From Thermoanaerobaculales bacterium (GTDB lineage Bacteria; Acidobacteriota; Thermoanaerobaculia; Thermoanaerobaculales; Sulfomarinibacteraceae): 58,947 bases of DNA. The stretch is taken from contig JARFRM010000299.1 in NCBI GenBank assembly GCA_029287235.1, forward strand, positions 1 to 58,947, read 5' to 3'. Position numbers and translations under genes: made by a program. Under the pieces are notes generated by a model that was not told where the DNA came from, did not search any database, and worked only from the letters and a program-made list of their open reading frames with translations. The stretch's first letter is position 1. Each line of letters opens with the position of its first letter. Positions 20,811 through 43,432 of this stretch are shown here, piece after piece.

Positions 20811-22066
20811 GCCTTCTCATCCGGGGTGCTCACCAGCTGGCCACACCCATCGGAGATTCGACGCGGCGAGGGGGTGATTTCGGCCGACTGGCGATTGCTC
20901 CTCGGGCCGTCATTCGCTGCGAGGGCACCGATGTGGTCTTTGTCGGTGACGCCGCCGAGCAGGAACTGAAGTTCCCGCCTCCACAGCAGATCCTCGATGC
21001 CGCCGGCGGTTGCGTCATCCCCGCCTTTGTCGATCCCCATACGCACCCGGTGTGGGCGGGCTCACGGGAGCAGGAGTTCAACCGCCGCCTCGCCGGCGAG
21101 TCCTACATGGAGATCGCGCGCTCGGGGGGCGGGATCAACGCTACCGTCCAGGCCACAAGGGCCGCGTCGTTCGAGACGCTCCTCGATGGAACCCTCACAC
21201 GCCTCGACACCTTCCTCGAACACGGAACCACGACCGTGGAGGCCAAGTCGGGCTATGGCCTGGATCTGGCCACCGAGGTCAAGATGCTCGAGGTCATCGC
21301 GGCGGCCCAACGCGCTCACCCCGTGGATCTCCACCCCACGTGTCTCGCCGCCCATGAGGTCCCCATCGAGCACCGCGATGATCCCGAGCGTTGGGTCAAC
21401 GCGCTGGTGGAAGAGATCCATCCCAGCATCGCCCGCCGCGGACTCGCCGAAGCGGTGGACGTGTTCTGCGAAGACGGTGTCTTCGATATCGAGCAGACCC
21501 GCCGCCTCCTGGCCGACGCCGAAGCGTTCGGCTGGAGAATCCACCTCCACGCCGACGAGCTGACACCTCTTGGAGGAACCGAGCTGGCGGTCGAGTTCAA
21601 GGCCCTGTCTGCCGACCACCTCATGTGCATCACCGATCGGGGAATCGCCGCCCTGGCTGAATCGGAGACCATCGGAGTTCTGCTTCCGGGGACCTCGTTC
21701 TTTCTTCGATCCGACTACGCGCCGGCCCGAAAAATGGTGGAGGCCGGTTGCGCCGTCGCCCTGGCCACCGACTGCAACCCTGGTTCCTCGCCCACCGAAT
21801 CCATGCCGACAATCCTCGCCCTTGCGACCCTCGAGATGGGTCTCACCATCGAGGAGGCGCTGACCGCCGCCACTCTCAACGCTGCAGCCGCCATCGGTCG
21901 GGCATCGGAGCTCGGATCCATCGAGGAGGGCAAGAGGGCGGATCTGGCGATCCTGAGCGGTGCGAGCTATCACCACCTGGTCTACCACTACGGCGTCAAC
22001 CCCATCCGCCACGTGGTCAAATCGGGCAAGGTCGTCGTGAAGGACGGGATTCGGGTGAGCCGTTAG
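20807..22066 (+). CDS. hutI: Imidazolonepropionase
   Basis: 419 residues. The amidohydrolase metal motif VDPHTHPVWAGSREQEF, conserved EAKSGYGLD, LAAHEVP, LHADEL and ALATDCNPGSS are diagnostic of HutI. It hydrolyses 4-imidazolone-5-propanoate to N-formimino-glutamate, step three of histidine breakdown, in the cytoplasm. No hutH, hutU or hutG is in the window; instead it is coupled (ATGA) to divIVA. The last codon and the stop (CGT TAG) are formed by the first unit of the heptamer array that begins at 22061, so the C-terminus may have been set by that element. Confidence 0.93.
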   Translation: MSLLIRGAHQLATPIGDSTRRGGDFGRLAIAPRAVIRCEGTDVVFVGDAAEQELKFPPPQQILDAAGGCVIPAFVDPHTHPVWAGSREQEFNRRLAGESYMEIARSGGGINATVQATRAASFETLLDGTLTRLDTFLEHGTTTVEAKSGYGLDLATEVKMLEVIAAAQRAHPVDLHPTCLAAHEVPIEHRDDPERWVNALVEEIHPSIARRGLAEAVDVFCEDGVFDIEQTRRLLADAEAFGWRIHLHADELTPLGGTELAVEFKALSADHLMCITDRGIAALAESETIGVLLPGTSFFLRSDYAPARKMVEAGCAVALATDCNPGSSPTESMPTILALATLEMGLTIEEALTAATLNAAAAIGRASELGSIEEGKRADLAILSGASYHHLVYHYGVNPIRHVVKSGKVVVKDGIRVSR

Positions 22067-22181
22067 CCGTTAGCCGTTAGCCGTTAGCCGTTAGCTGTTA
22101 GCCGTTAGGCTCATCACAAATCGTGCCCTTGGAGGCAACCCTGTGATGGAGCTAATGGCTAAACGCTAATAGCTAAAAGCT
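22061..22181. repeat. Inverted heptamer-array element 1 (TTAGC/GCTAA type)
   Basis: Left arm: seven tandem 7-mers CGTTAGC (22061-22109; one unit is TGTTAGC, the last ends GG). Loop 22110-22150 begins TCATCACA and ends TGTGATGGA, which are themselves nearly complementary. Right arm: GCTAATG, GCTAAAC, GCTAATA, GCTAAAA (22151-22178). The arms are reverse-complementary at the TTAGC/GCTAA core of every unit, so a long hairpin can form. Read on the minus strand it aligns with elements 2 and 3, so it is inserted in the opposite orientation. It fills the space between the convergent 3' ends of hutI and the YmdB-like gene. Confidence 0.85.
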
Positions 22182-22196
22182 TTGCGTCTTCGCGGT

Positions 22197-22991
22197 TTAA
22201 CTCACATCCACCTTGACCCTGCGGATCGCGGTGGCCCTGCCCGTGGTCTCATCCGCGTCAACGAGCGCGCCTCGGAGCTGGATGTCGCGTTTGGCCGGTT
22301 CGAAAGGCCTCGGTGTGTTGTAGAGGAATCGCTCGAGCACCTTGGCCGGCTTCATCCCGATGATGGACTCGTACGGCCCGGTCATACCCACATCGGTCTG
22401 AAACGCCGTCCCCTGAGGCAGGATCCGTTCGTCGGCGGTCGGGACATGGGTGTGGGTGCCGAGAACCGCGGTCGCTCGCCCGTCGAGGTACCAACCCATG
22501 GCCTGTTTCTCCGATGTCGCCTCGGCGTGCATGTCGACCAGAATGATCTTCGCTCCCGGATGAGCCGACGCGATCTCGTCGAGCACCGCATCGGCCTTCC
22601 GAAACGCGTTGTCGATGGGCGGCATCATGGCCTGGCCCTGGAGGTTGACCACCGCCACCGGCACGCCGGTGGCCGTTTCCTCGACGCACCACCCACGCCC
22701 CGGATTGCCCTCCGGATAGTTGGCGGGGCGCAGCAGGCTCGGGTGCGCATCCAAGAGCGGAACGCCCTCCTTTTTGTCCCAGACGTGGTTGCCCGTCGTC
22801 CAGACATCCACCGGAAAGCGCTCGAGTTCGGAGAGCACCGCGGCCGTGATACCGAACCCGCCGGCCGCGTTCTCCACGTTCGCGACCACAAAATCGACCT
22901 GCTCGCGATCGACCAGGGACTCGAGACCCCCGGCGACCGCCTTGCGACCGGCCGACCCCATGATGTCGCCGACAAAAAGAAGTCGGATCAC
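22197..22991 (-). CDS. Metallophosphoesterase of the YmdB family (TIGR00282)
   Basis: 264 residues from GTG 22991, giving the canonical start [18 protein letters not shown]; the GTG overlaps the rny stop (GTGA). The calcineurin-like metal motifs are [30 protein letters not shown] and [15 protein letters not shown], exactly those of YmdB, a 2',3'-cyclic nucleotide phosphodiesterase known to modulate RNase Y-linked processes in Bacillus. Coupling to rny fits that. No membrane segment. I give the family rather than a precise substrate because it has not been tested here. Confidence 0.92.
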
Positions 22992-24562
22992 CGAGCGTAC
23001 TCCACAGCGCGGGTTTCTCGGATGACCGTCACCTTGATCTGACCGGGATAGGTGAGCTCCGCCTCGACCTTCTTGGCGACATCGCGGGCGAGCCACACGG
23101 CCTTGTCGTCACCGATCTTCTCACTCTCGACGATGATCCGAAGTTCGCGACCGGCCTGGATGGCGTACGCCTTTTCGACGCCCTCGAAATCGGTGGCCAT
23201 GCCCTCGAGCTTTTCGAGGCGCTTGATGTAGTTCTCGAGGATTTCGCGTCGCGCGCCCGGACGGGCCGCCGACAGAGCGTCCGCCGCCGTCACCAGGACC
23301 GCCTCCACCGAGTGTGGATCGTAGTCGCCGTGATGACACTCCATGGCGTGGATCACCTCGTCGCTCTCACCGTACTTCCTGAGCATTTCTCGGCCGAGCT
23401 CGAGGTGGGTGCCGTCCATCTCGCGGTCCACCGCCTTGCCGATGTCGTGGACCAGACCGGCGCGCTTCGCGACCTCGGCATTGGCGCCGAGCTCCGCCGC
23501 CATATGGTTGGAGAGCCATGCCACTTCCATGGAGTGCTTGAGCGCGTTCTGGCCATAGGACGATCGGAACTGGAGGCGACCGATGAGCTTGTGAAGCTCG
23601 GGATGGATGTCGGGAATCCCGACTTCGAGCGCCGCGGCTTCACCATCGGCGAGGAGCTTCTCATCCATCTCCGCCTTGACCTTGCCCACCAACTCCTCGA
23701 TCCGTCCCGGGTGGATACGGCCGTCCTGGATCAGGCTTTCAAGGGCGCGTCTCGCAATCTCACGCCGCACCGGCTCGAAGCACGAGAGGATCACCGCCTC
23801 CGGAGTGTCATCGACGATGAGATCGACGCCGGTGGCCTGCTCGAAGGCGCGGATGTTGCGCCCCTCACGGCCGATGATCCGACCCTTCATCTCGTCCGAC
23901 GGCAGGTCGACCACCGAAACGGTGCTCTCGACCACATGCTCGGAGGCGATCCGCTGAATCGCCATGGAGATCACCCGACGGGCCCTCTCCTTGGCTTTCT
24001 CGGTATTTTCCTCCTCGATCTTTCGAACCAGATTCGCGGCGTCCATCCGCGCCTCGTTCTCCAGACTCCTCAGGAGCTCCTGCTTGGCCTGTTCGGTTGT
24101 CAGCCCGGCAATCTGTTCGAGCTTGACCCGCTCCTCGGCGAGGGCCGATTCCAATTCATCGCCACGCATACCGAGCATGGTTTCTTGACTGTGGAGTTCT
24201 TCTTCGAGCTTGGCCATCGCGCTCTCGCGTTCCGCGACCTGCTCCGACCGCTCGTCGATCTCGTTCTCCTTCTCCCGGAGGGTCTGTTCGAGTCCGACGA
24301 GTTCGAGCCGCTGTCCTCGGGTCTCCCGCTCGAACTCGGTCCGCGCCGCGAGCAGCCGCTCGCGGGCCACGATTTCCACGTCCTTTCGAAGACGCTCGCC
24401 ATCAATCTCGGCTCGTGCGATGACCCTCTTTGCCTGCTTCTCGGCATTGGCGACCAGTCTGAGTGCCGCGCTGCGCGAGCGGCGCCACAGCACCCAGACC
24501 AAAACCAATCCGAGGATCGCGACCAGCAGCACAACAAGGGCTGCGATCAACCGTAAGTCCAC
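22988..24562 (-). CDS. rny: Ribonuclease Y
   Basis: 524 residues, typical length. Layout: one N-terminal membrane helix (residues 5-26), a long coiled coil (~30-210), a KH domain ([21 protein letters not shown]) and an HD domain with [17 protein letters not shown], the metal-binding [12 protein letters not shown] and [11 protein letters not shown]. RNase Y is a membrane-tethered endonuclease that initiates mRNA decay. The start is GTG preceded by AGGGGGTGG. Upstream lie 6S RNA and zapA; downstream is the coupled ymdB-like gene, an order known in several Gram-negative phyla. Confidence 0.95.
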
Positions 24563-24631
24563 GATCCACCCCCTACTATGTCAAGGAGCGATCAGACCGA
24601 CCGGCATCAGGAGAAACGACTATGAAAGCTA

Positions 24632-24818
24632 AGGGGAGGCCCCCACTACGGCCGTGTGAGCAACCCTATTTGAACCTGCGCTACCACAGGTGGGCACCTG
24701 TCCCCCGCCTGTCTCCCGCCGTGGGGCAGGCATCGAAGCGAGAGAACCCGGCAACCCTTCAAATAGGTGTTGGTTCAACGATAGTTTCACTCATCACCAA
24801 CCGCGCAGGGACCTCCAA
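24632..24818 (-). ncRNA. ssrS: 6S RNA
   Basis: The 259-base gap between zapA and rny can fold, on the minus strand, into the 6S architecture. A 9-bp closing stem pairs 24808-24816 with 24635-24643. A large open bubble follows whose 5' strand contains GCGCGGTTGGTGA, resembling the conserved CGCGGUUGGUGA of enterobacterial 6S. A 10-bp stem then pairs 24758-24767 with 24665-24674 below an apical stem-loop. The length is about 187 bases, as expected. 6S RNA mimics an open promoter and sequesters the sigma-70 holoenzyme. The zapA-ssrS neighbourhood is conserved in Proteobacteria. Ends are estimated from the closing stem. Confidence 0.78.
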
Positions 24819-24821
24819 GTC

Positions 24822-25133
24822 CTAATTCTCAGCACCTGTAACATCAGGCCTCATGGCCTCTTCGACTTTCATGACGAGTCGCTCCGCTTGTTTCTCCAAA
24901 CGTTTCTGCCGGACGTCCTGATCCGTCTCACGCTCTAAAAAGAGCTCGTCAGCAATATTGAGTGCGGTCAAGACCGCGATCTTAACCGTGTCGACACTGG
25001 AGCTCCGATCGGCAACCTCACGCATCCGCGAGTCCACGAACCGGGCGATTTCCTGCAGCCGGGTCGCGTCTCCATCCGCACGAAGTCCGAGCCGTTGGCC
25101 GAAGATCTCGACTGTCGCTCGAACGGTTGCCAT
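24822..25133 (-). CDS. zapA: Cell division protein ZapA
   Basis: 103 residues. VRATVEIFGQRLGLRADGDA is the ZapA N-terminal domain, followed by RLQEIARFVDSRMREVADRS, DTVKIAVLTALNIADELFLE and a coiled-coil C-terminus. ZapA cross-links FtsZ protofilaments at mid-cell. GAAGGAGTG precedes the ATG. It is followed by 6S RNA and rny, with a ZapB-like coiled-coil gene about 1.8 kb upstream beyond a plus-strand membrane-protein gene. Confidence 0.9.
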   Translation of the reverse strand: MATVRATVEIFGQRLGLRADGDATRLQEIARFVDSRMREVADRSSSVDTVKIAVLTALNIADELFLERETDQDVRQKRLEKQAERLVMKVEEAMRPDVTGAEN

Positions 25134-25155
25134 TCGTCACTCCTTCCCATTGATG

Positions 25156-25183
25156 AGTATACAGTATCGAATCCGGGTCTCAC
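25156..25183 (-). promoter_or_regulatory. Candidate promoter of the zapA-6S-rny unit
   Basis: Minus strand: TATACT (25156-25161) as a -10, with GTGAGA (25178-25183) 16 bases upstream as a partial -35. The start would be near 25149, 16 bases before zapA. The -10 is good; the -35 matches only four positions. Confidence 0.35.
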
Positions 25184-25332
25184 CGCGATGAGCCCACACC
25201 TCCGACCGGGATTCTCAGCAAGGTCAGCGAAGGGATGGGCATCACCGGCTGCCGCAGAAGGCCGGCGAGGGGTGTGACCTCCGATCGATCATTGTCTCTG
25301 CCGACGCCACCGGTTATGGTCGTGTACAGCAG

Positions 25333-26943
25333 ATGGATGCACCGCCTCACCCACCGGGTTCTCGGCAACGGCGCAGCACGATCGTGGTCGTGATCGCGGT
25401 GGTGGGCCTCTATCTACTCCCTGCGGCCGGTCATCCTCCCGCCACCAACCCCAACGAGTTGGTCCGCATCGAGCTCGCCCTCGCCATGGCGACCTGGGCG
25501 ACCGTCGATCTCGACAGTCCGGCTCGGGTCTATGGCTATTCCGAGGACCTGGCACGCCGGGACGACCGCATGTTGGCGGACAAGGCGCCCGGCCTCTCGC
25601 TCGCCGCCGTACCTGTGGTGTGGCTCTCGGGATCCTTGCTGCCCTCCATCCCCGACTCCGATCTGCCGCGGTACTGGCCACTCCGCCACCTCCTGACCGG
25701 AGTACTCGTGGCCCTGGGCACTGCGCTGCTGTGCTTCTTCGTTGCCGCCGGAATCTCGGATCTTCGGGACAAGGGCTGGATCCCACTTGCCCTCATCGCC
25801 GCCCTCGGCACGCCCTTGTGGTCCTATGGGACGGTCTTCTTCGGTCACGCTCCCGCGGCGGCGCTCATCGCGGTCGCATGGGTCATCCTCCTGCAACCGG
25901 GCAACGCCCCGGGGGGAACGCGAACGGCTTTTCTGGGCGGGCTCTCGGCGGGGTTGGCCATCACCACCGAGTACCCCACCGCCCTGCTGGTCGCCATCGT
26001 CTTCGGCTCTCTGGTTTTTCGTCGCGTTCCCCCACGGCAGCTCGGATCCGCCTTTGCCGGTCTCGCGATCGGGCTGTTGCCGGTGCTGGTCTATCACCAG
26101 GTTGCCTTCGGCGCTCCTTGGCTGACCGGCTACGTGTTCAAGGCCGACCCCGGGTTCCAACAGATTCACGCCACCGGCTTGAGCGGGGTATCTCTGCCCA
26201 CCATCGAGGGTCTCTGGGGGGTGCTGTTCAGTTCCGCGCGTGGTCTTTTCTTTTTCTCGCCGGTGCTGCTCCTGACCCCCATCGGTCTGTGGCTCATGCA
26301 CCGACGACACCGGTGGAGAGACGTCGCACCCCTGACAGCCGCCATCGTCGTCTATGTCGCCTTCGCCGCCGGATTCGTCGACTGGCAGGCCGGCTGGTGC
26401 GCCGCCGCCCGCCACCTGGTCCCGATCGTCCCGCTGCTCGCCATCCCGACCATGATGGCCATGGCGGAAATGGCACGCCGAAGGTGGGGACTGCTCGTGT
26501 TGGCGGGACTTGTCGCGCTGTCCGCGGCACGCGGTTTTCTCACCTTGGTGGTCACGCCGTTCTTCCCACCCGAGTTCGACAATCCACTGGGGCAGGTGGT
26601 TCTGCCGAGTCTCCGAGACGGTGTCGCGGCGCCGAACATCGTCAGCTCCGGCATCGGGCTGCACGCCGGATTCGTCTGGGCGACTGCGGCCGCTCTGACG
26701 GCTGTCCTTCTGGTTTGGGGGCTCGGTCGCCTGGGGCGCGGATTCACACCCTGGATCTCGGTGGTGATGGCGCTCACGATCGCCGGGCAAGTGGCCTGGT
26801 GGGTGTGGCGCAGCCCACCGCCCGACCCACAACTCGAGAGGTACAGGGCTCAGCTGCTCGTCAACCTCGGCCATCGGGAAGCCGCGGCTCGGATCGATGC
26901 CACGCTTCGGTCTACGCCGCCTTCAGCTCGCGGGGACCGCTGA
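25333..26943 (+). CDS. Multi-spanning membrane protein, GT-C-like
   Basis: 536 residues with about eleven hydrophobic segments from residue 17 to ~490 and a short soluble tail (RYRAQLLVNLGHREAAARID). Features shared with a bacterial family of unproven mannosyltransferase-like proteins are NPNELVRIELALAMATWATV, a luminal region with ADKAPGLSLAAVPV, and GLAITTEYPTALLVAIVFG. The K-x-PG and TEYP motifs recur in that family. It could transfer sugars from a polyprenyl carrier, but no catalytic residue is certain. It has no same-strand neighbours and ends 5 bases from the convergent zapB-like gene. Confidence 0.55.
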   Translation: MDAPPHPPGSRQRRSTIVVVIAVVGLYLLPAAGHPPATNPNELVRIELALAMATWATVDLDSPARVYGYSEDLARRDDRMLADKAPGLSLAAVPVVWLSGSLLPSIPDSDLPRYWPLRHLLTGVLVALGTALLCFFVAAGISDLRDKGWIPLALIAALGTPLWSYGTVFFGHAPAAALIAVAWVILLQPGNAPGGTRTAFLGGLSAGLAITTEYPTALLVAIVFGSLVFRRVPPRQLGSAFAGLAIGLLPVLVYHQVAFGAPWLTGYVFKADPGFQQIHATGLSGVSLPTIEGLWGVLFSSARGLFFFSPVLLLTPIGLWLMHRRHRWRDVAPLTAAIVVYVAFAAGFVDWQAGWCAAARHLVPIVPLLAIPTMMAMAEMARRRWGLLVLAGLVALSAARGFLTLVVTPFFPPEFDNPLGQVVLPSLRDGVAAPNIVSSGIGLHAGFVWATAAALTAVLLVWGLGRLGRGFTPWISVVMALTIAGQVAWWVWRSPPPDPQLERYRAQLLVNLGHREAAARIDATLRSTPPSARGDR

Positions 26944-26948
26944 GGGAA

Positions 26949-27224
26949 TCAGTTTGCTGAGGTCCCCTTGGTAAGCACGCCGTCGATGAGACCGAGCACC
27001 TTTTCGAGACGGGCGGCGAGCTCGTCGCGCTGTTTCTCGAGCGAGGTCACTCGTTCGTCGGCTTCTGATTGGCCCGACAGCTGGGTTTTGAGCTCCGTGA
27101 TTTCGGTCTCGAGATCACCGACTCTGGCTTCGAGCTCGGCTGAGGTCGAAACGGCGGCGCTGTAGGCCTCGACGAGCTCTTCAATACGGGATTCCAGCTG
27201 TTTCAGGACCGATTCCATTGCCAT
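26949..27224 (-). CDS. ZapB-like coiled-coil cell division protein
   Basis: 91 residues from ATG 27224, chosen because GGGAG lies 6 bases upstream. Almost the whole protein is a heptad-repeat coiled coil: ESVLKQLESRIEELVEAYSA, LEARVGDLETEITELKTQLS, RVTSLEKQRDELAARLEKVL. Size and composition match ZapB, which bridges ZapA-FtsZ and the division apparatus, and the position between pheT and zapA is where zapB-like genes occur in related genomes. Coiled coils carry little family-specific signal, so the name is tentative. Confidence 0.6.
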   Translation of the reverse strand: MAMESVLKQLESRIEELVEAYSAAVSTSAELEARVGDLETEITELKTQLSGQSEADERVTSLEKQRDELAARLEKVLGLIDGVLTKGTSAN

Positions 27225-27246
27225 GGCAAACTCCCTTGGATATCCA

Positions 27247-29283: not shown

Positions 29284-30299
29284 TCGAACTGCCTCGTCAA
29301 TCGTTGGTCGCCGGCAAAGAGCTGCCGAAGATCGGGAATTCCATACTGCAACATGGCCACCCGGTCGAGACCGAGGCCAAAGGCGAATCCCGTGTATCGT
29401 TCGGGGTCGATACCCACCGCCTCGAAGACCCGCGGGTCGACCATCCCGGAACCCAGGATCTCGATCCAGCCCGAACCCGAGCACACCCCGCAACCCTTCA
29501 TGTCACAGAAGATGCACGAGATGTCGACCTCGGCCGACGGCTCGGTGAAGGGGAAGTAGCCGGGCCGGAGACGGACCTGGACGTCGTCCGAAAAAAGGGC
29601 GTGGAGAAAGGTCTCCAGCGTCGCTTTGAGATTGCCGACGGTGATCCCCTCATCCACCACCAGCCCTTCGAGTTGGTGGAACATGGGCGAGTGCCTCAGA
29701 TCAGAGTCGCGGCGATAGACGCGCCCGGGGACCACGATCCTGATCGGCGGCTGTGTGCGCTCCATCACCCGCGCCTGGACCGGAGAGGTATGGGTTCGCA
29801 GGAGATTCGAGCCGACGTAGAAGGTGTCCTGGTCATCCCGCGCCGGGTGATCCGGCGGGATGTTGAGCGCCTCGAAGTTGTGCCAGTCATCCTCGATCTC
29901 GGGGCCGCTCTCGACGTCGTAGCCCATCCTGAGGAAGATCTCCTCGATGCGGCGCCGGACCAGGTGGACCGGGTGCTCGGCGCCCCGCGGTAGGGCCCTA
30001 CCGGGCAGGGTCACGTCGATCTGGCCGACCGAAGACGACCCCGCCGACGCGGCCGCCCGCTCCTTGGCCTGCTTGAGCCCGTCCTCGACGAATTTCTTCA
30101 GCTCGTTGAGAGCCTGGCCATAGTCGCGCTTGGCCTCGTTGGGCAATTCACGCAATGCGGCTGTCAGGTCCTGCAACAGACCCGATTTGCGGCCGGCATA
30201 GGCGACCCGGAGCGTTTCGACCGCATCCGGATCGCTCCCCGCGGCCGCCAAATCGGCGGCAAAGGACGCCCGCACCTTCTTCAGGCGCTCGAGCCCCAC
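29280..30299 (-). CDS. pheS: Phenylalanine-tRNA ligase alpha subunit
   Basis: 339 residues. An N-terminal coiled coil precedes the class II catalytic core: HPVHLVRRRIEEIFLRMGYD (motif 1), RVYRRDSDLRHSPMFHQLEG (motif 2) and GFAFGLGLDRVAMLQYG (motif 3). It activates Phe and transfers it to tRNA-Phe as an alpha2-beta2 enzyme. GTG 30299 is used as start: it is 7 bases after the L20 stop and preceded by GAGGG; the frame upstream runs inside rplT. A Cys-rich strip (CIFCDMKGCGVCSGSGW) near motif 3 is common in PheS. Confidence 0.95.
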   Translation of the reverse strand: MGLERLKKVRASFAADLAAAGSDPDAVETLRVAYAGRKSGLLQDLTAALRELPNEAKRDYGQALNELKKFVEDGLKQAKERAAASAGSSSVGQIDVTLPGRALPRGAEHPVHLVRRRIEEIFLRMGYDVESGPEIEDDWHNFEALNIPPDHPARDDQDTFYVGSNLLRTHTSPVQARVMERTQPPIRIVVPGRVYRRDSDLRHSPMFHQLEGLVVDEGITVGNLKATLETFLHALFSDDVQVRLRPGYFPFTEPSAEVDISCIFCDMKGCGVCSGSGWIEILGSGMVDPRVFEAVGIDPERYTGFAFGLGLDRVAMLQYGIPDLRQLFAGDQRLTRQFE

Positions 30300-30306
30300 G
30301 ACACCC

Positions 30307-30657: not shown

Positions 30658-30667
30658 TTCAACCTCC

Positions 30668-30868: not shown

Positions 30869-30897
30869 GTTTGCCTCCCTCTTTCTTTGGCCCGCTC

Positions 30898-32879: not shown

Positions 32880-32898
32880 AAAAACCCGACCACGGGTT
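32880..32898 (-). terminator. Intrinsic terminator after the tRNA-Val pair
   Basis: Minus strand: AACCCG, loop TGGT, CGGGTT (stem 32883-32888 with 32893-32898), then a U-rich run (TTTGTGTTTTT). It lies 26 bases after the tRNA-Val(CAC) gene and about 40 bases before thrS. Confidence 0.7.
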
Positions 32899-32924
32899 GG
32901 GATCGGGTATCACTGTTCCATCAA

Positions 32925-33001
32925 TGGTAGGCGCGCGCGGACTCGAACCGCGGGCCTCATCCGTGTGAGGGATGCGCTCTAACCAACTGAGCTACGCGCC
33001 T
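32925..33001 (-). tRNA. tRNA-Val (anticodon CAC)
   Basis: On the minus strand a full cloverleaf: acceptor AGGCGCG/CGCGCCT, D arm GCTCAGTTGGTTAGAGC, anticodon stem CATCC/GGATG with loop CTCACAC (anticodon CAC, reading GUG), T arm CGCGG-TTCGAGT-CCGCG, discriminator A and an encoded CCA. 77 bases with CCA. It follows the tRNA-Val(GAC) gene by 16 bases. Confidence 0.97.
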
Positions 33002-33017
33002 CCACGGAACAGAAAAA

Positions 33018-33094
<77 letters not shown>

Positions 33095-35875: not shown

Positions 35876-35938
35876 ATCGGCGAGGGACCGAAGGGGTAGA
35901 ATCCTCCATCGAACCGAATTTTCCGCCGGGAGGGCGAC

Positions 35939-36211
35939 ATGGATCAGAACCCTGTGGTGATCACGACGGTACAGGGCGAGCTTGAGGAGCAGCAGCTTCG
36001 GGTCTTTCTCGAGGCCAACGGGATCCCCACCGTGGTTCGGGGGGAGGCGCTTCGAAAGACCCATGCCTTCATCCTCGACGGGCTCGGCGCGGTGGAGATC
36101 ATGGTGGCGCCCGAACACGAGGCCGCGGCGCGCGATCTCTTGGCCAAGGTCGAGTCCGGCGAGCTCGAGCTCGCGAGCGAGGTCCTGCCGTCGGATTCAA
36201 TTGGCGATTGA
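35939..36211 (+). CDS. DUF2007-family protein
   Basis: 90 residues preceded by GGGAGG. VVITTVQGELEEQQLRVFLE and ANGIPTVVRG followed by EIMVAPEHEAAARDLLAKVE match DUF2007 (putative signal-transducing protein, ferredoxin-like fold), a small cytoplasmic family of unknown function. It is 63 bases after the sulfatase-like gene and may be co-transcribed. Element 2 of the heptamer family follows 43 bases after its stop. Confidence 0.75.
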   Translation: MDQNPVVITTVQGELEEQQLRVFLEANGIPTVVRGEALRKTHAFILDGLGAVEIMVAPEHEAAARDLLAKVESGELELASEVLPSDSIGD

Positions 36212-36254
36212 CGACGCGGGAATGCTCGAAGGAAACCGGAGAAACAGCGTAAGT

Positions 36255-36362
36255 TTTTAGCTACTAGCCTTTAGCTCTCAGCTTCATCGCACATGCTTGG
36301 GAGTGCGACGCGGATTCCTCCGATGGAGCTAACAGCTAACGGCTAACGGCTAACGGCTGAGC
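36255..36362. repeat. Inverted heptamer-array element 2 (TTAGC/GCTAA type)
   Basis: Left arm: TTTTAGC, TACTAGC, CTTTAGC, TCTCAGC (36255-36282). Loop 36283-36327 begins TTCATCGCA and ends CCGATGGA. Right arm: GCTAACA then three GCTAACG and a degenerate GCTGAGC (36328-36362). The left arm is degenerate and the right arm homogeneous, exactly as in element 1 read in reverse. It lies between the convergent 3' ends of the DUF2007 gene and aspS. Confidence 0.82.
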
Positions 36363-36364
36363 CT

Positions 36365-36507
36365 CCTGCAAAAATCCTGGATCGCGGATTGTAGCGCCCA
36401 TCTCCAGATCGGAGTCGATCGCTTCGATGCCTGCCAGGACGCCCATCTGGAGTTGGGCGGTACAATCCGCCTCGGTACCGGATGGCCGAATGGTCGAATT
36501 TTGCAGG
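36365..36507. repeat. Long imperfect hairpin between element 2 and aspS
   Basis: Two 26-base arms (36384-36409 and 36445-36470) are reverse-complementary at 24 of 26 positions around a 35-base loop. A second, outer pair CCTGCAAAA (36365-36373) and TTTTGCAGG (36499-36507) encloses them. It sits immediately after heptamer element 2 and 16 bases from the aspS stop. No U-tract follows either arm. I recognise no family; it could be a structured RNA, a processing site or a miniature inverted-repeat element. Confidence 0.75.
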
Positions 36508-36522
36508 CGGCTCGGCTGACAG

Positions 36523-38268
36523 CTACCGTGTCTTGAGCCCCAACTCATCGAGCTGCCGCTCATCGACCCCCGACGGCGCCTCGGTCATCAGACACGAAGC
36601 CGATGTTGTCTTGGGGAAGGCAATGACGTCGCGGATGGAGTCCCGTCCCGCCAAGAGCATGATCATCCGATCGATCCCGAGCGCGATCCCGCCGTGCGGC
36701 GGCACCCCGTAGCGGAAGGCCTCGAGCAGGAAGCCGAATCGCTCCCGCGCCTCCTCCTCGGTGATCCCGAGAGCCGTGAACATCTGCTGTTGGACCGTGG
36801 CGTTGTTGATCCTGATCGACCCGCCTCCGAGCTCGACGCCATCCATCACGACGTCGTAGGCCCGGGCTCGCACCGCTCCGGGATCGCTCGCAAGCAGTCC
36901 GAGATCCTCGGGCAGCGGAGAGGTGAAGGGGTGGTGCATGGCGAAGAACCGATCCGCATCCTCGTCCCACTCGAGGAGAGGAAAATCGGTCACCCAGAGA
37001 AAATCGTGCCGACCCTCGGGGATGAGATCCCGCTCAGCTGCGAGATGGAGCCGTAGGGCCCCGAGGGCCGCGAACACGACCTTCGCGACCCCACCCACCA
37101 CCACGAGGAGGTCCTCCTCGGCGGCGCCCGCGGATTCGAGGAAACGCAGCACCCCATCCTCACCCAGGGCCTTCTTGGCCGGCGACGCGACGCCGTCGGA
37201 GGTTCGTTTGAACCACAGGACCCCGGGCACCCCGTAGGGTTTGACGAAGTCCGACAGGGCGTCGAGCTGCTTGCGTGACAGCGATGCACCACCGGGAACG
37301 ACAATGCCCTTGACCCGTCCTTCGGCGGCCGCGCTCTCGAGTACCCTGAAGCCGCAGCCCTTAGAGAAAGGCGCCATTTCGATGAGCTCGAGGCCGAAGC
37401 GGGTGTCCGGCCGGTCAGACCCGAAACGCTCCATGGCGTCGGCATAGGCCAGCCGTGGATAGGTCGCCGGAGGCTCGATGCCGACGACCGGGAAGATCCG
37501 CTCGAAGAGACCCTCCACCAGAGCATAGATGTCATCCTCGGTGATGAAGGACGCCTCGACATCGATCTGTGAGAACTCCGGTTGGCGATCGGCGCGGAGG
37601 TCCTCGTCGCGGAAGCAGCGTGCGATCTGGACATAGCGTCCGACCCCGGCCACCTGGAGCAGCTGTTTGAAGAGCTGAGGCGACTGCGGCAGCGCATAGA
37701 AGCTGCCCCGGTGAATCCGTGACGGGACGAGAAAATCGCGCGCACCCTCCGGGGTCGACCGGGTCAGGATCGGTGTCTCCACCTCGAGAAAATCCATCTC
37801 GTCGAAGTAGCGGCGGGCATCGGCGACGACCCGGTGGCGCAGCACCAGATTCGCCATCATCTCCGGCCTTCGGAGATCGAGGTAGCGGTACTTGAGGCGA
37901 AGCTCCTCCGAGGCGTTGGCCTCATCCTCGACGACAAAGGGCGGCGTCTCCGACTCGGTGAGGAGCTCGAGCATCACTACCGTGACCTCGACCTCGCCGC
38001 TGGCGAGATCGGCGTTGGTCTGACCCTCGGCGCGCGCCCGCACCTCGCCGACCACCCGGATCACATCCTCGCCCGAGAGCCTCTCGCCCTCAACCACCAT
38101 CTCGTCCTCGAAGACGAGCTGGATCAGACCGCTGCGGTCCCGGAGGTCGACAAAGACCAGGCCACCGAGATCACGGCGCCGACGCACCCACCCGACGAGC
38201 TCAACCGTGTCGCCGATCTCTTCCACACCGAGGCTCGCACACCATGGTCGATCCCACGCACTCGTCAT
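36523..38268 (-). CDS. aspS: Aspartate-tRNA ligase (bacterial type)
   Basis: 581 residues. An N-terminal OB anticodon-binding domain ([20 protein letters not shown]) is followed by the class II core with motif 1 [34 protein letters not shown], motif 2 [20 protein letters not shown] and motif 3 [16 protein letters not shown]; between motifs 2 and 3 lies the bacterial GAD insertion (~residues 290-420). It charges tRNA-Asp; whether it also mischarges tRNA-Asn cannot be told. It is 27 bases after hisS and probably co-transcribed with it. Confidence 0.96.
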
Positions 38269-38295
38269 CTGTGACTCCGTTTCCGTCGCAATAGA

Positions 38296-39561
38296 CTACT
38301 CTTCAACTCGAAGCAGCTCGACCACTCGTCCGACGACACGGTCAAGGGCCGCCTTCTCCTGCTCGCCCCGGCGAAGATCGCGGATGAGGGCGGCTCCTTC
38401 GGCAAGCTCCTGCTCACCGAGGATCACGGCGACGCTGGAGTTCATCTTCCCCGACCACTTGAGACCGGCCTTGAGCGACCGACCGGTGACCTCGGTGTGG
38501 ACCGTCGCCCCGGCACGCACGAGATCTCGTGCGAGGGCCGTTGCCGGGGCCACACTCCCATCCCCCAGCGGCAGCACGGTGACCACCCGCTCATCGAAGG
38601 CTCGGTCCTTGAAGCTCTGAGGAAGGACCTCGATGAGCCTGTCTTCGCCAATCGCGAAGCCGACTCCGGGAACCGCCGCGCCCCCGAGATCTGAGATCAA
38701 TCGATCGTAGCGACCACCACCACAGATCACCGTGTCCTCACCGAGCTCGGGGGAGATGACCTCGAAGACGGTTCTCAGATAGTAGTCGAGACCGCGGACC
38801 AGCCGCGGCGCCCGACGAACCGGGATCGACACCGCGTCCAGGGCGTCCTCGACAGCGGCGACGTGATGCCTCGCGTCCTCGCTCACAACGTCCGCCACCG
38901 GGGTCGTCTCTGCAACCAGCTCCCGGCAGCGCGGGACCTTGCAGTCGAGGATCCGAAGTGGATTCTCATCCCACCGGCGCTGGCAGTCGCCACAGAGTTC
39001 CTCGCGATGCGGCGTCAGCTCGGTCTTGAGCCCCGCAATGAATCGTTCGCGATCCTCGGGGTCGCCGAGGTTGTTGAGCACGATGATGAGATTGTCGAAG
39101 CCGAGCTCGGCGAGAAACGTGTGCAGCGCGACGATGACCTCGACATCGGCCGCCGGGGTCGCGGCACCGAGAACCTCGATGCCGATCTGGGAGAACTGGC
39201 GGTAGCGGCCTCGCTGCATCCTCTCGTAACGGAACATCGGCCCGAAGTAGCTCAACCGCAGGGGTTGGGGTCGCTGACCGAGGCCGTTCTCGATGAAAGC
39301 TCTCGCCACACTTGCCGTTCCCTCGGGCCGCAGGGTCAACGATCGGCCCTTGCGGTCGGCAAACGTGTACATCTCCTTGGACACGATATCGGTGCCCTCG
39401 CCAACCGTGCGCACGAAGAGCTCGGTGGGTTCGAGCAAAGGCAGCCGGATTTCGGAGTATCCGAAGCCCTCGAAGACGCGTAACGCCGTGCGCTCGACCT
39501 CGTTCCACAACCGCGTCTCGGGCGGCAGGATGTCGCGGGTTCCCTTGACCTTGCGGATCAT
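38296..39561 (-). CDS. hisS: Histidine-tRNA ligase
   Basis: 421 residues. IRKVKGTRDILPPETRLWNE is the canonical start; motif 2 region LSYFGPMFRYERMQRGRYRQ, histidine-specific motifs RRAPRLVRGLDYYLRTVFEV and CGGGRYDRLISDLGG, and a C-terminal anticodon-binding domain follow. A four-Cys cluster (LCGDCQRRWDENPLRILDCK then VPRCREL) is the zinc-ribbon-like insertion common in bacterial HisRS. The ATG overlaps the stop of the upstream carbonic anhydrase-like gene by 4 bases (ATGA), and aspS follows. Confidence 0.96.
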   Translation of the reverse strand: MIRKVKGTRDILPPETRLWNEVERTALRVFEGFGYSEIRLPLLEPTELFVRTVGEGTDIVSKEMYTFADRKGRSLTLRPEGTASVARAFIENGLGQRPQPLRLSYFGPMFRYERMQRGRYRQFSQIGIEVLGAATPAADVEVIVALHTFLAELGFDNLIIVLNNLGDPEDRERFIAGLKTELTPHREELCGDCQRRWDENPLRILDCKVPRCRELVAETTPVADVVSEDARHHVAAVEDALDAVSIPVRRAPRLVRGLDYYLRTVFEVISPELGEDTVICGGGRYDRLISDLGGAAVPGVGFAIGEDRLIEVLPQSFKDRAFDERVVTVLPLGDGSVAPATALARDLVRAGATVHTEVTGRSLKAGLKWSGKMNSSVAVILGEQELAEGAALIRDLRRGEQEKAALDRVVGRVVELLRVEE

Positions 39562-40115
39562 GAATCGTCCTCTTCCTCCGACCCGAACTGCGGCCTCCCG
39601 AGGCCCTGCTCGAGATAGGTGTTCTTGTAATTGACGTAGTTCGTCGCCGTCCCGCGTGCGCGATCGGCCTCGGCATCGGTGAGAGGCCGCTTGACCACCG
39701 CCGGCACTCCGGCAACCAGACTGCGCGGCGGCACCTTGAAGCCCTCGCGAACCACCGCTCCGGCGGCCACCAGCGAGCCCTCACCGATGACGGCGTTGTT
39801 GAGCACCATCGCTCCCATCCCGATCAGGCTGCCAGCACCGATCGTACAGCCGTGGAGCATAGCACCGTGACCGACGCTCACCTCCTCTTCGAGAAGGGTT
39901 GGATAGAGCCCTCGTTCCACGTGCACGATCACGCCGTCCTGGAGATTCGATCGCGCACCGATTCGAATCCAGTGGATATCGCCGCGGATCACCACGTTGT
40001 ACCAGACCGAAACGTCGTCTCCGAGCCAGACCTCTCCGACCACCACCGCATTGTCGGCAAGAAAGACTCGGCGACCGAAAATCGGGGTCAATCCGGAGAC
40101 GGTTTGAATCGACAT
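39558..40115 (-). CDS. Gamma-carbonic anhydrase-like left-handed beta-helix protein
   Basis: 185 residues from ATG 40115, chosen because GGAGG lies 6 bases upstream. The hexapeptide repeats of a left-handed beta-helix run from VFLADNAVVVGEVWLGDDVS to VIGEGSLVAAGAVV. Three His in the spacing of the gamma-carbonic anhydrase zinc site are present (GVIVHVERG, VSVGHGAMLHGCTIG), with the conserved Arg/Asp pair in VVIRGDIHWIRIG. It may hydrate CO2 or act as a YrdA/PaaY-like protein. It heads the hisS-aspS unit by ATGA coupling. Confidence 0.85.
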   Translation of the reverse strand: MSIQTVSGLTPIFGRRVFLADNAVVVGEVWLGDDVSVWYNVVIRGDIHWIRIGARSNLQDGVIVHVERGLYPTLLEEEVSVGHGAMLHGCTIGAGSLIGMGAMVLNNAVIGEGSLVAAGAVVREGFKVPPRSLVAGVPAVVKRPLTDAEADRARGTATNYVNYKNTYLEQGLGRPQFGSEEEDDS

Positions 40116-40475
40116 TGAGGTCCTCCACACGCCGTCCCAACGGGCGGTGCTCAGGGCGGAGTGGGCACGCTACCACAGGGTCGTTGAACGCAGCAACGTC
40201 GCCCATCAGATCTTCGAACGCAAAATACCGGAAATGTTCGGCTTGTGGATCTCAGACCCGAATCGACGGGAGGCAACAGTCGAAAACTCAACGAGATAGG
40301 TGTAAATATCTATAATTAAACAACTTAAGTCTGGAAGGCAAATTCAACAAAGAAACGCCGAAGTGCTTGTGTTTACATTGGCTTAACCGATTTTCCACAG
40401 GGTTTTCCACAGGGTTTTCCACAGAGGTGTACGAGAGGCGAAAGGACCCCGCGAACGGCGGTTCAGGGGTCTCGA
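40116..40475. other. Non-coding gap, A+T-rich, with DnaA-box-like cluster
   Basis: 360 bases between the carbonic anhydrase-like start and the tsaC stop. Its central part (about 40295-40390) is conspicuously A+T-rich for this genome, including the stretch TAAATATCTATAATTAAAC. It contains the tandem TTTTCCACA cluster (40391-40423) and a further box-like TGTGGATCT (40244-40252). Short open frames crossing the cluster encode only the repeat (VENPVEN / STGFSTGF) and are not credible genes. Confidence 0.7.
40391..40423 (+). repeat. Three tandem DnaA-box-like 9-mers (TTTTCCACA)
   Basis: TTTTCCACA occurs at 40391-40399, 40403-40411 and 40415-40423, exactly 12 bases apart, each followed by GGG or GAG. 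It differs from the DnaA box TTATCCACA at one position and lies beside an A+T-rich stretch. Regular boxes beside A+T-rich DNA are the design of bacterial origins and DnaA-regulated sites (known). Whether this is an origin, a DnaA-titration site or a regulatory site is open. Confidence 0.65.
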
Positions 40476-41108
40476 TCAGCCCTCTTGGAGGACCCACTTT
40501 TCGAGATCCAGGGGCTCGTCCCAGACCACCGGACCGGACCGGATCTCGTGCGCCTCCTCCGAGCTCAAATCGAGGAGCGTGCTGACGGCTCCCCCGGCCA
40601 ATATCCCTCCGTCGAGCACGAGATCGGGGACCCCGCGCAACGACCCGAGCGCGCCCTCCACCGATGGTGAGGGCGGCTCACCGTGTCCGTTGGCCGATGT
40701 CGCGGTGAGAGGACCAACCCGATAGAGGAGCGCCCGCAACCGGTCCGAATCGGGGATCCGGACCGCGAGGGTGTCGGTCGACGACGCGGCCACAGCCGTT
40801 CTACACGGTGCCACGACGGTCAGGGCGGCCGGCCACACCCGGGCCAGCTTGACCCGATGCATCGGGTGAACATCCACCAGCGAATCCACCTGCTCCCAGT
40901 CGGAACACACGACCGGGAGGGCCTGGCCGCCGGGCCGTCCCTTGAGCGAATAAACAACGGCAACCGCATCCGGCTGCCGCGGATCAACGCCCAATCCGTA
41001 GTGGCTTTCGGTGGGAATGAGAATCACCCCACCCGCAGCCACGACCTCGGCCGCCGCGCCGAGGGCGCGTTTGATGTCTTCCGATCCAACAAAAGGCAGA
41101 CGCGTCAT
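40476..41108 (-). CDS. tsaC: L-threonylcarbamoyladenylate synthase (TsaC/Sua5/YrdC family)
   Basis: 210 residues. VVAAGGVILIPTESHYGLGV is the YrdC nucleotide-binding start, followed by VVYSLKGRPGGQALPVVCSD, ARVWPAALTVV and GPLTATSANGHGEPPS, all conserved in TsaC. It makes threonylcarbamoyl-AMP from Thr, bicarbonate and ATP for the t6A modification of tRNAs reading ANN codons. The typical KxR...KR site reads LKGRPGGQ. The ATG overlaps the recN stop (ATGA). Confidence 0.9.
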   Translation of the reverse strand: MTRLPFVGSEDIKRALGAAAEVVAAGGVILIPTESHYGLGVDPRQPDAVAVVYSLKGRPGGQALPVVCSDWEQVDSLVDVHPMHRVKLARVWPAALTVVAPCRTAVAASSTDTLAVRIPDSDRLRALLYRVGPLTATSANGHGEPPSPSVEGALGSLRGVPDLVLDGGILAGGAVSTLLDLSSEEAHEIRSGPVVWDEPLDLEKWVLQEG

Positions 41109-42808
41109 GAGCCACCAAGAAGGGTCCGCGCGTGGGCTCGCGCCGATTGGCCGATTTCGTCCCCGGCCAACATCCGCGCCAGCTCGATCTCGCGGTCCTC
41201 ACCCTCGAGCTCGAGAACCTGCGTCACGGCCCGATCATCGACCTGAACCTTGTCGATCTTGAAATGGGTGTCTGCCGCGGCCGCGACCTGGGGCAGGTGG
41301 GTGACGGTGAGGACCTGATCGGTAGCGGCGAGATCGGCAAGAAGGGCCGCCAGGGCCGCCGCCGTCGCTCCACCGAGACCCGAGTCGACCTCGTCGAAGA
41401 GCAGGGTCACGGCGCCACCCGGGCGTGCCGAGCGAAGGACGGTTCGAATCGCGAGGTGGATCCTCGAGAGCTCACCCCCCGAGGCGATCCGCGCCATCGG
41501 TCGCGGCTCCTCGCCGGGGTTGGCGGCGATCAGAAGCTCGCACTCCTCGACCCCATCCGCGTCGAAGGCGACTCTCTCACCGTTTCGCACCAGCGGACTC
41601 CGGTCATCAATCCGGGGCTGCCACCGGAACTCCAAACGGGTTCCCGCCATGTTGAGCCGGACGAGCACATCCTCCACCGCGCGAGCGAGCTTGGCTCCAG
41701 CCCGGTGTCGAGCCGTATCGAGTCGCTGGCCGGCCTCGGCAAAATCCTCGAGGGCGGCGGCCTCCACGCCAGCGGCGGCCTCGAGCCGGTCTTCGACCTC
41801 CTCGAGCCGGTCCTTCTCGGCGACCAACGCCTCTCGATGCTCGAAGACCTTGTCCAGGGGCTCACCGTACTTGAGCATCAGTTTCTCGAGGTTGTGCAAC
41901 CGGCTTTCAACGTCGTCAAGCTCGCCCGGATCACCGTCCATGTCAGCCGTCAATGCGCGCACCTCGCGGACCAACTCCTCGACGTGGATCCGCGCCTCCG
42001 CCAGGGTGGCGTTGCCCTCGGCCAACGGAAGACCGTGCGCCACCATCTCTTCCACGTCACGTTCGGCGCGGGCGATGCGATCGACAACCGAAGACTCGTC
42101 GTCACCGAGGCTGCCGAGGATCGATCCCGAGAGCTCGCGCAGCCGCGCCGCGTTGCGCAACACATCCCGGCGGGCGGTCAACTTTTCGTGCTCACCTTCT
42201 ACAGGATCGACCGAATCGATCTCGGCGAGTTGAAAGGTGATGGTGTCGAGCCGATCACGACGGTTGGCGCGGGCGATCTCGAGGGAGGCCCGATGGTCTG
42301 CCGCCTGCCGCCACTCGGCAAAGCTCTCGCCGACCTCGGTGAGCAATCCACCATGATCGCCGGCATGATCCACCAGCCGCCGCTGGACCTCGGCATTCGC
42401 CAGACCGTGCTGTTCGTGTTGGCCGTGGATGGAGAGCAGGAGCGGTGCGATCCTTTGCAGGGTGGCGACGGTGACCGCATCGTCATTGATCCAGCACCGC
42501 CCGCGACCCTCGGCCGAGAGCTCACGCCGAATGACCAGCTCATCCCCATCGGCGAGGCCGACTTCTTCGAGGATCCCCGCGAGACCCGACCCCGGGTCCA
42601 CGCGGAACCAACCCTCGACCTTGAGGTGGTCGTCTCCCGTTCGAACGAGCTCCGAGGATGCACGTCGCCCGGCCAGCAGCTCCAGCGAGGAGACCAGGAG
42701 GGACTTACCGGCCCCGGTTTCCCCGGTGAGGGCGACGAATCCCGGCGCCAATTCGACCTCGACGGCATCGATGATGCCGAGCCCGCGAACCAGAAGACGC
42801 TCGAGCAT
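41105..42808 (-). CDS. recN: DNA repair protein RecN
   Basis: 567 residues. SMC-like layout: N-terminal ATPase half MLERLLVRGLGIIDAVEVEL with Walker A GETGAGKSLLVSSL; a long coiled coil (~170-370); C-terminal half with signature ASGGELSRIHLAIR and Walker B VTLLFDEVDSGLGG; then VLTVTHLPQVAAAADTH. RecN acts early at double-strand breaks. ATG 42808 begins the canonical N-terminus; the longer open frame upstream overlaps the divergent cupin gene. No LexA-box-like site was recognised in the 88-base divergent gap. Confidence 0.95.
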   Translation of the reverse strand: MLERLLVRGLGIIDAVEVELAPGFVALTGETGAGKSLLVSSLELLAGRRASSELVRTGDDHLKVEGWFRVDPGSGLAGILEEVGLADGDELVIRRELSAEGRGRCWINDDAVTVATLQRIAPLLLSIHGQHEQHGLANAEVQRRLVDHAGDHGGLLTEVGESFAEWRQAADHRASLEIARANRRDRLDTITFQLAEIDSVDPVEGEHEKLTARRDVLRNAARLRELSGSILGSLGDDESSVVDRIARAERDVEEMVAHGLPLAEGNATLAEARIHVEELVREVRALTADMDGDPGELDDVESRLHNLEKLMLKYGEPLDKVFEHREALVAEKDRLEEVEDRLEAAAGVEAAALEDFAEAGQRLDTARHRAGAKLARAVEDVLVRLNMAGTRLEFRWQPRIDDRSPLVRNGERVAFDADGVEECELLIAANPGEEPRPMARIASGGELSRIHLAIRTVLRSARPGGAVTLLFDEVDSGLGGATAAALAALLADLAATDQVLTVTHLPQVAAAADTHFKIDKVQVDDRAVTQVLELEGEDREIELARMLAGDEIGQSARAHARTLLGGS

Positions 42809-42896
42809 GGGGCCGCATCCTACCACTCTTCGAGTACACTGGTTCCCGACCTTTATCCGAGAATCATCGCTGAGGCCAACGAAAGGAAATCTCGTG

Positions 42897-43289
42897 ATGA
42901 GCCATCCATCCTCTCCCGTTGTACGGAACATCGACACGGTCGAGGCCCAGGTTGTGGAGCGCACACGAGGCGCCGCAATCCAGATCCTCATCGGGCCCAC
43001 AGACGGCGCCCATAACTTCATCACTCGACGATTCACCCTGGCGCCGGGGGGCCGTATTCCCAGCCACCGTCACACCACCATCGAGCACGAGCAGTTCATC
43101 CTGGCCGGAGCCATGGTGATCGGCCTCGACAACCGTGAGGTCGCAGTGGCCGAGGGCGATTCGGTCTTTATCCCCGCCGGGGTGGCGCACTGGTACGAGA
43201 ATCGAACGGACGAACCCGTGGCCTTTCTCTGCATGGTTCCCCACACCGCCGAGTACCAGACAGAGTGGTTGGAGGGGCCGGCGGAGTAG
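42897..43289 (+). CDS. Small cupin-domain protein
   Basis: 130 residues from ATG 42897, preceded by AAGGAAA. A single cupin_2 barrel: motif 1 IPSHRHTTIEHEQFILAGAM (metal-binding His and Glu residues) and motif 2 GDSVFIPAGVAHWYENRTDE (third His). Such proteins bind a divalent metal and often a small ligand, acting as isomerases, dioxygenases or sensors; the substrate is not predictable. It is alone on the plus strand between recN (divergent) and coaE (convergent). Heptamer element 3 begins 6 bases after its stop. Confidence 0.8.
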   Translation: MSHPSSPVVRNIDTVEAQVVERTRGAAIQILIGPTDGAHNFITRRFTLAPGGRIPSHRHTTIEHEQFILAGAMVIGLDNREVAVAEGDSVFIPAGVAHWYENRTDEPVAFLCMVPHTAEYQTEWLEGPAE

Positions 43290-43294
43290 AGGAA

Positions 43295-43432
43295 AGCTCT
43301 TAGCTCTTACCTCTTAGCTCTTACCTCTTGGCTCTTAGCTCTTAGCTCTTAGCTCTTAGGTTCATCACAGATCATCCCGGAGAAGTCACCTCTGCGATGG
43401 AGCTAACGGCTGATTGCTAACGGCCAGCAGCT
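43295..43432. repeat. Inverted heptamer-array element 3 (TTAGC/GCTAA type)
   Basis: Left arm: nine tandem 7-mers of the type AGCTCTT (variants ACCTCTT twice, GGCTCTT once), 43295-43357, equivalent to TTAGCTC in another phase. Loop from 43358 to 43401 contains TTCATCACAG and ends CTGCGATGGA. Right arm: GCTAACG, GCTGATT, GCTAACG, GCCAGCA (43402-43429). It occupies almost the whole space between the convergent cupin gene and coaE, and is co-oriented with element 2. Confidence 0.85.

Follow-up and report, generated by a model that had tools for sequence, protein, structure and literature searches.

The short tandemly repeated repetitive (STRR) sequences of cyanobacteria are heptanucleotide arrays that have been described as tandem 7-mers and are not known to form the inverted arms of an inserted element. 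Pairs of inverted heptamer arrays are also in print: Xanthomonas carries 70-75 pairs of inverted GGGAATC arrays, for which the accessible text reports no general association with transposable elements (PMC4692102), and in Geobacter metallireducens inverted heptamers make up one class (class 3) of 'regulator sites' (PMC2700814, accessible part). TAACTGA direct repeats are reported from Beggiatoaceae (PMC4679880, accessible part). The intervening sequence (IVS) in the 23S rRNA of Coxiella combines a terminal stem with an S23p gene, which is preceded by three tandem GACAGAT heptamers whose number varies between strains (PMC4990558, accessible part). Here, a 58,947-nucleotide stretch (the window; positions 1 to 58,947 of contig JARFRM010000299.1, assembly GCA_029287235.1) from a Thermoanaerobaculales bacterium of the Acidobacteriota was analysed, in which a first-pass annotation had pointed out three elements made of inverted heptamer arrays around a loop with conserved edges. 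Arms of the same architecture were found to enclose a gene of the PF05635/TIGR02436 four-helix-bundle family (hereafter the four-helix gene) in many phyla, and the window elements are most likely gene-less members, resembling miniature inverted-repeat transposable elements (MITEs), of a mobile family.

Elements 1-3 (22061-22181, 36255-36362 and 43295-43432) are intergenic, all sit between convergent protein genes and follow one plan, in which tandem heptamers with core TTAGC lead to a loop of about 40 bases and then to an inverted GCTAA array. The loop is edged by CATCRCA and GATGG, reading CATCACA...TGTGATGGAG in element 1, CATCGCA...TCCGATGGAG in element 2 and CATCACA...TGCGATGGAG in element 3, and the common plan proposed earlier is seen in all six arms and in the loops. 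Of the six arms, Tandem Repeats Finder detects the two of element 1, the right one of element 2 and the left one of element 3; the degenerate arms (element 2 left, element 3 right) were assigned by eye. The loops of elements 1 and 3 are identical at 27 of 38 positions when aligned in the same orientation and at 11 of 38 when one is reversed, so the occurrence of copies in both orientations cannot rest on element 1. When folded as RNA, elements 1 and 2 lie far below their shuffles (z -5.4 and -4.6; 0 of 200 shuffles as good), whereas element 3 does not (z -1.3; 23 of 200 as good). No sign of covariation was seen between the loop edges (R/Y of CATCRCA and TGYGATG), the bases combining freely: the five of 11 elements with both edges exact comprise two A/C, one G/T, one G/C and one A/T combination.

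Further copies are dispersed over the genome of the same organism (5.07 Mb in 336 contigs). A pattern of arm plus GATGG edge, outside which element 2 falls, gave 14 forward and 11 reverse matches (0 and 2 in the control) at 15 distinct places, namely elements 1 and 3 and 13 places outside the window, one of them gene-holding; the edge pair alone gave 13 and 10 matches (control 0 and 0). The genome scan that the first-pass annotation had called for therefore did reveal more copies. In 209 kb taken from 20 stretches picked only by contig number, period-7 inverted pairs occur at four places with four different heptamers, a density of about 19 per Mb. Across the window and 20 stretches selected for their elements, paired inverted period-7 arrays numbered 14, 26 and 20 at three scanner settings, compared with 0, 2 and 0 in shuffled sequence, and period-6 pairs were at least as numerous as period-7 pairs in the stretches of this genome (25, 137 and 21). 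The scanner was relaxed once, after it had missed the degenerate arms of the window, and the relaxed settings were used for the gene test described below; at this setting a fourth window pair (at 45747) passes and elements 1-3 fail, their arms being too degenerate. This pair 4 (45744-45954; GTGAGTC / GACTCAC) encloses about 100 bases without CATCRCA edges. Edge pairs recur in two other genomes of the genus (8 + 7 and 8 + 5 matches) and in 18 of 56 more distant genomes searched, and no heptamer arms were seen at the six edge-pair loci read in these distant genomes.

The sites of the window show gain or loss when compared with two genomes of the same genus (G001 and G002, 70-91% identical over aligned stretches). 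Elements 1 and 2 are missing from both, and element 3 has a decayed copy in G001 and an empty site, without arms, in G002. Pair 4 is missing in G002, and in G001 its place is taken by a pair of 9-mer type around a CATCGCA...GATGG centre. In G001 the site of element 1 holds another inverted array of GCAAAG type (contig C260, locus L143), and in the window's genome a right part like it (CTTTGCGTCTTCGCGGTT) persists next to element 1. Adjoining element 2, a different imperfect hairpin (GCGGATTGTAGCGCCC...GGGCGGTACAATCCGC; 36364-36515) is likewise absent from both related genomes. The left array of element 3 differs in length from the G001 copy by exactly 49 bp, or seven heptamer units, so that array length changes by whole units, which supports the earlier hint of slippage. 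Template switching, proposed alongside slippage, would keep the two arms mirror images and is not supported: the best registers of the arms range between -4 and +3 units, the two central ones accounting for 23 of 65; a mirrored order of units between arms was not seen. Whole-unit length change together with non-mirrored units fits slippage in each arm independently.

Gene-bearing copies connect the elements to one protein family. The genome contains 15 PF05635 matches, and the surroundings of 12 were read. Inverted heptamer arrays flank three of them (C63, C131 and C227), which score 132.8, 141.4 and 63 bits, respectively, against a curated cut-off of 33.8 and encode TIGR02436 four-helix-bundle proteins of the 23S rRNA intervening-sequence family. 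C63 has TTAGC arms and window-type loop edges (TCCATCACA...TTTGCGATGA), C131 has CAGTTGA arms with edges CATCGCA...TGCAATGG, and C227 has ATGATGA arms; each of these arm types is also found gene-less in the same genome. Judging from the same heptamer and the same edges, the window copies probably share descent with C63. The search for a genome-encoded protein matching the elements, another suggestion of the first-pass annotation, thus leads to the PF05635/TIGR02436 protein by its position beside the arms. C233, which lies beside a contig end, has one heptamer arm on the only side that its contig holds, and the remaining loci read have other repeats or none. Six genes (C203, C74, C228, C322, C177 and C300) form a PF05635 subclade, mostly with MNNQEVIM-like starts, that has hexamer-like repeats beside several members and no heptamer pairs, and behind some of its members stand TGCGATG and a palindrome of the GGGCGGGCTTCCAGCCTGCC type. 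A profile of the four-helix proteins matches the solved structures 2gsc (XCC0516 of Xanthomonas campestris) and 2rld, and one protein search returned 3150 relatives of 'four helix bundle protein'.

The tie between gene and arms extends across phyla and is specific to period 7. GTDB species genomes were scanned with an alignment of 17 four-helix proteins, and the best 80 of 564 confirmed loci, which by their titles come from Planctomycetota, Bacteroidota, Chloroflexota, Acidobacteriota, Cyanobacteriota, Fibrobacterota and others, were examined with one fixed scanner for inverted arrays in the 400 bp to either side of the gene. Such arrays surround 44 of these 80 genes, all with period 7, and periods 5, 6 and 8-13 were found at 0 of 80 at the same setting (one period-8 case at a laxer setting). 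Control windows in the same loci, which overlap one another, gave period 7 in 4 of 2612 and any period of 5-11 in 13 of 2612. Judged by the weaker arm only, 68 of the 80 loci have their best period at 7 or 14, and 10 have none. The heptamer varies among loci, yet AG occurs in the arm before the gene at 41 of the 44. The inner edges of arms in other phyla are unlike CATCRCA / GATGG, and the conserved loop edge described earlier therefore stands within this genus and not beyond it. The flanks of the 80 genes (584 kb) also hold 21 gene-less inverted heptamer pairs, several sharing an arm, compared with none in shuffles.

A second, non-random set consists of the first 40 gene places outside the window's genome that were listed by a family search over 139 genomes of the Acidobacteriota, and it includes genes from one and the same genome, apparent near-copies (L308, L312) and one locus with masked bases (L302). 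Period 7 was found at 22 of these 40 and any period of 5-11 at 30 (2 and 3 of 183 closer control windows, respectively), with AG in the arm before the gene at 18 of the 22. In this set (L301-L340), period 8 took the place of period 7 at six loci, and periods 6 and 9 did so at one each. On viral contigs 13 of 23 genes pass the period-7 test, near-duplicates included, as do four of the six plasmid loci read. The family search behind the second set found the gene in 70 of the 139 Acidobacteriota genomes. No 23S rRNA was detected beside the four-helix genes, four short 23S motifs giving 0 matches in 341 sequences.

Insertions can be read on cyanobacterial plasmids, among which the four-helix gene was matched in 37 records, mostly of Nostocales. 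One insert of 428 bp, made up of the gene and both of its TCAGAAT arms, is carried by Trichormus variabilis plasmid C and by Scytonema NIES-4073; the corresponding region is empty in plasmids of Nostoc linckia and Tolypothrix (identity 97.6-97.7% across the 83% that is shared), and the insert leaves a 5-bp overlap, GTAAT. Plasmids of Nostoc strains C052 and ATCC 53789 show the same presence and absence at two more sites, of which the second has unclean borders and the third an overlap of 3 bp. Arms and centre arrive together on these plasmids. Four-helix genes were also seen inside cyanobacterial CRISPR operons (loci L364 and L367): in Picosynechococcus PCC 7003 one is flanked by cas10 and the Cmr3 gene, PCC 7002 being without it there, and in Anabaena sp. 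90 one is flanked by cas6 and cas4.

Gene-less copies on these plasmids insert exactly next to ATAA without target duplication. In pNPM1, a gene-less 181-bp heptamer element lies inside a four-helix gene, and BLAST locates it, whole or in part, at 98 places spread over 43 plasmid records, of which 28 contain the greater part of it. Three clean empty sites were found, in the four-helix gene, beside a ParM/StbA gene and in rarA. At all three, the element (TTGAAGAAG...CTGTTTG, its last G counted as part of it, as two of the three sites show) was inserted directly 5' of ATAA with 0 bases duplicated and 0 lost, and the fixed-length target site duplication of MITEs is thus missing at these insertions. 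ATAA stands exactly to the right of 11 of the 18 copies with both ends read, two of which look like one site on two plasmids, compared with a background of 0.4%; the other seven have ATAA one base off (two), no proper right end (three) or a different sequence (two). A fourth candidate empty site, in N. sphaeroides (L386 versus L393), was too diverged to read. The additional genome copies, the vacant sites in relatives and the clean empty plasmid sites for the same architecture together support the earlier notion of a dispersed or mobile repeat.

We interpret elements 1-3 as likely gene-less members of a widespread family of mobile elements, other copies of which carry the four-helix gene between arms of the same kind, and we give this interpretation, movement in trans included, a probability of roughly 0.6. 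The elements would move as hairpins and would be inserted beside a short target by an enzyme acting in trans, probably a single-strand transposase of the HUH (Y1) type; the four-helix protein is predicted to bind the hairpin. Single-strand HUH transposition of the IS200/IS605 kind would be expected to place a unit with hairpin ends exactly next to a short fixed sequence and to duplicate nothing, and the gene-less cyanobacterial insertions resemble this behaviour. A HUH/Y1-type transposase acting in trans appears to fit the cyanobacterial insertions best, and the window's genome itself has 17 Y1 matches. At one of the five Y1 loci read (L186, 2030-2071), a single GTTGACA heptamer array lies about 1.4 kb from the Y1 gene. 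On a wider view, the inverted heptamer hairpins of many phyla would be remains or satellites of one ancient class of transposase-less transposons, with seven-base-array ends, an Avd-like four-helix gene as their only gene, and IVSs as copies that landed in rRNA; we hold this tentatively, at a little under even odds.

Several observations weigh against mobilization of the window elements in this manner. No transposase was seen inside the elements read, and a heptamer pair was found at none of the five Y1 loci read in the window's genome. Among 16 genomes carrying the gene, five have no Y1_Tnp match, four no RVT_1 match and three (G060, G064 and G071) neither, so that some other type of enzyme may be at work or the copies there may be relics. 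These 16 genomes hold 1-13 gene copies of widely differing score, and no recent burst of gene-bearing copies is therefore seen. The clean insertions are all cyanobacterial and none is in the window's genus, in which no target motif beside the elements is apparent by eye. Two gene-bearing insertions show the short overlaps of 5 and 3 bp and a third is unclean, unlike the gene-less ones. Moreover, a period-7 pair is missing at nine of the 12 PF05635 loci read in the window's genome, and the period-7 test is failed by 36 of the best 80 of 564 genes and by 18 of the 40 in the second set. The identity of the family is held firmly, and the mobilizing enzyme loosely because of the carriers without Y1 and those without either enzyme.

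Four other explanations were weighed. The arrays might be older host hairpins, with only the CATCRCA...TGYGATGG centre being mobile and entering their tips as rRNA intervening sequences replace tips; such a two-step origin would agree with the identical edges found within different arrays (TTAGC, CAGTTGA, ATGATGA and 9-mers), with a nested case at C25:66494 and with the different inverted array at the element 1 site of G001. However, the empty plasmid sites lack both arms and centre, the empty G002 site of element 3 lacks arms, and arms occur in other phyla without these edges, which makes this origin unlikely. Retro-type mobility, in which a resident reverse transcriptase would copy the element RNA with an Avd-like four-helix protein as cofactor and the DNA copy would be inserted, is about as doubtful. 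Two of five proteins scanned match Avd of diversity-generating retroelements (NF033474, E 9e-8 and 5e-11) as well as bAvd (PF22296), with scores that stay under the curated cut-offs, and structural homology of Avd and PF05635 has been suggested (PMC10053308, accessible part). Candidate reverse transcriptases are present in the window's genome as three RVT_1 matches in two places, but RVT_1 is unmatched in six of 19 genomes searched, including G001 and G002.

That the hairpins are host-functional, as terminators or regulator-binding sites selected between convergent genes and immobile, is improbable, even though the convergent setting is frequent: it applies to 13 of 27 elements of this genome (15 of 27 after two hand corrections), compared with 51 of 280 gene pairs, in a hand-assembled list of 29 elements of which 27 had both neighbours called by a rough gene caller. 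The strong folds of two of the three elements and the filing of the Geobacter inverted heptamers as regulator sites (PMC2700814, accessible part) point the same way. On the other side, neither an intrinsic terminator (GC stem, short loop and T run) nor an Rfam family was found at any of elements 1-3, and no rRNA in window positions 20000-47000; the elements are present or absent between species, and gene-less copies interrupt rarA and a four-helix gene. Ordinary simple-sequence repeats paired by chance would account for arrays that vary by whole units, and heptamers are over-represented in many bacterial genomes (PMC4692102, accessible part). Since inverted pairs are few or none in shuffles and the tie to one gene family is strong and period-specific, chance pairing is very improbable.

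The mobile family favoured here resembles several described systems and differs from each. Like 23S rRNA IVSs, the gene-bearing copies C63, C131 and C227 place a PF05635/S23p gene within a stem of terminal inverted repeats, and IVSs may be the rRNA-resident branch of the family. An IVS, however, sits in a 23S rRNA helix, from which RNase III excises it. The elements studied here are intergenic instead, and those of the window hold no gene and lie between convergent protein genes. With MITEs the window elements share terminal inverted repeats, short length, the lack of a gene and many dispersed copies, but their ends are heptamer arrays of variable length, and the three clean gene-less insertions show no target duplication; the ends of MITEs match those of an autonomous transposase element, and the ends here recur on a four-helix gene element that is not known to have a transposase. 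Dispersed intergenic hairpins are also known as repetitive extragenic palindromes (REPs) and their hairpin-forming pairs (REPINs), associated with Y1 transposases (RAYTs), which the window's genome likewise encodes. REPs are small palindromes tagged GTAG or CGTC (PMC3733652, accessible part). The carrier genomes without a Y1_Tnp match and the Y1 loci without inverted heptamer arms set the elements apart from REP/RAYT systems.

Although the first-pass annotation regarded the architecture as unfamiliar, the Xanthomonas and Geobacter pairs are, like the elements here, inverted tandem heptamers around a loop in many copies; a link to the four-helix gene is not mentioned in the accessible text of either account (PMC4692102, PMC2700814). 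No literature tying inverted heptamers to a PF05635 gene was found in a search that mostly did not extend to subscription papers. STRR sequences and the elements have tandem 7-mers in common, and inverted arms of an inserted unit are known only from the latter.

The features of the window are listed in Table 1. In addition, Rfam identified 6S RNA and two tRNA genes at 24636-24814 and 32928-33094, all on the minus strand, and a perfect 12-mer array (TTTTCCACAGGG, 2.8 copies) lies at 40391-40424.

Table 1. Heptamer elements of the window and their neighbouring genes.
Feature	Position	Strand	Remarks
Gene left of element 1	20807..22066	+	Presumably imidazolonepropionase; stop codon inside first heptamers
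Element 1, left heptamer array	22058..22108		GTTAGCC units
Element 1, loop	22111..22149		Edges CATCACA ... TGTGATGG
Element 1, right heptamer array	22150..22184		GCTAANN units, end = AGCTTT
Gene right of element 1, convergent	22197..23096	-	Presumably YmdB-type phosphoesterase
Short gene left of element 2	35939..36211	+	
Element 2, left (degenerate) heptamer array	36255..36283		By eye
Element 2, loop	36284..36326		Edges CATCGCA ... CGATGG
Element 2, right heptamer array	36327..36362		GCTAACG units
Gene right of element 2, convergent	36523..38268	-	Presumably aspartyl-tRNA synthetase
Open frame left of element 3	42429..43289	+	Last part presumably a small cupin gene
Element 3, left heptamer array	43295..43360		AGCTCTT units; G001 copy 7 units (49 bp) shorter
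Element 3, loop	43361..43400		Edges CATCACA ... TGCGATGG
Element 3, right (degenerate) heptamer array	43401..43432		By eye
Gene right of element 3, convergent	43437..44048	-	Presumably dephospho-CoA kinase
Pair 4, left arm	45747..45776		GTGAGTC units; loop edges differ from elements 1-3
Pair 4, right arm	45887..45954		CGACTCA-like units

In 2016, over 25 years after rRNA IVSs had been discovered, both what they do and how they arose were still described as unclear (PMC4990558, accessible part). If IVSs share their gene and arms with a mobile family found throughout genomes, the two questions could be put directly to the test in cyanobacterial plasmids whose empty sites are known. Such a family may also account for part of the heptanucleotide-repeat excess in bacteria, and it offers a testable role for the 'four helix bundle protein'.

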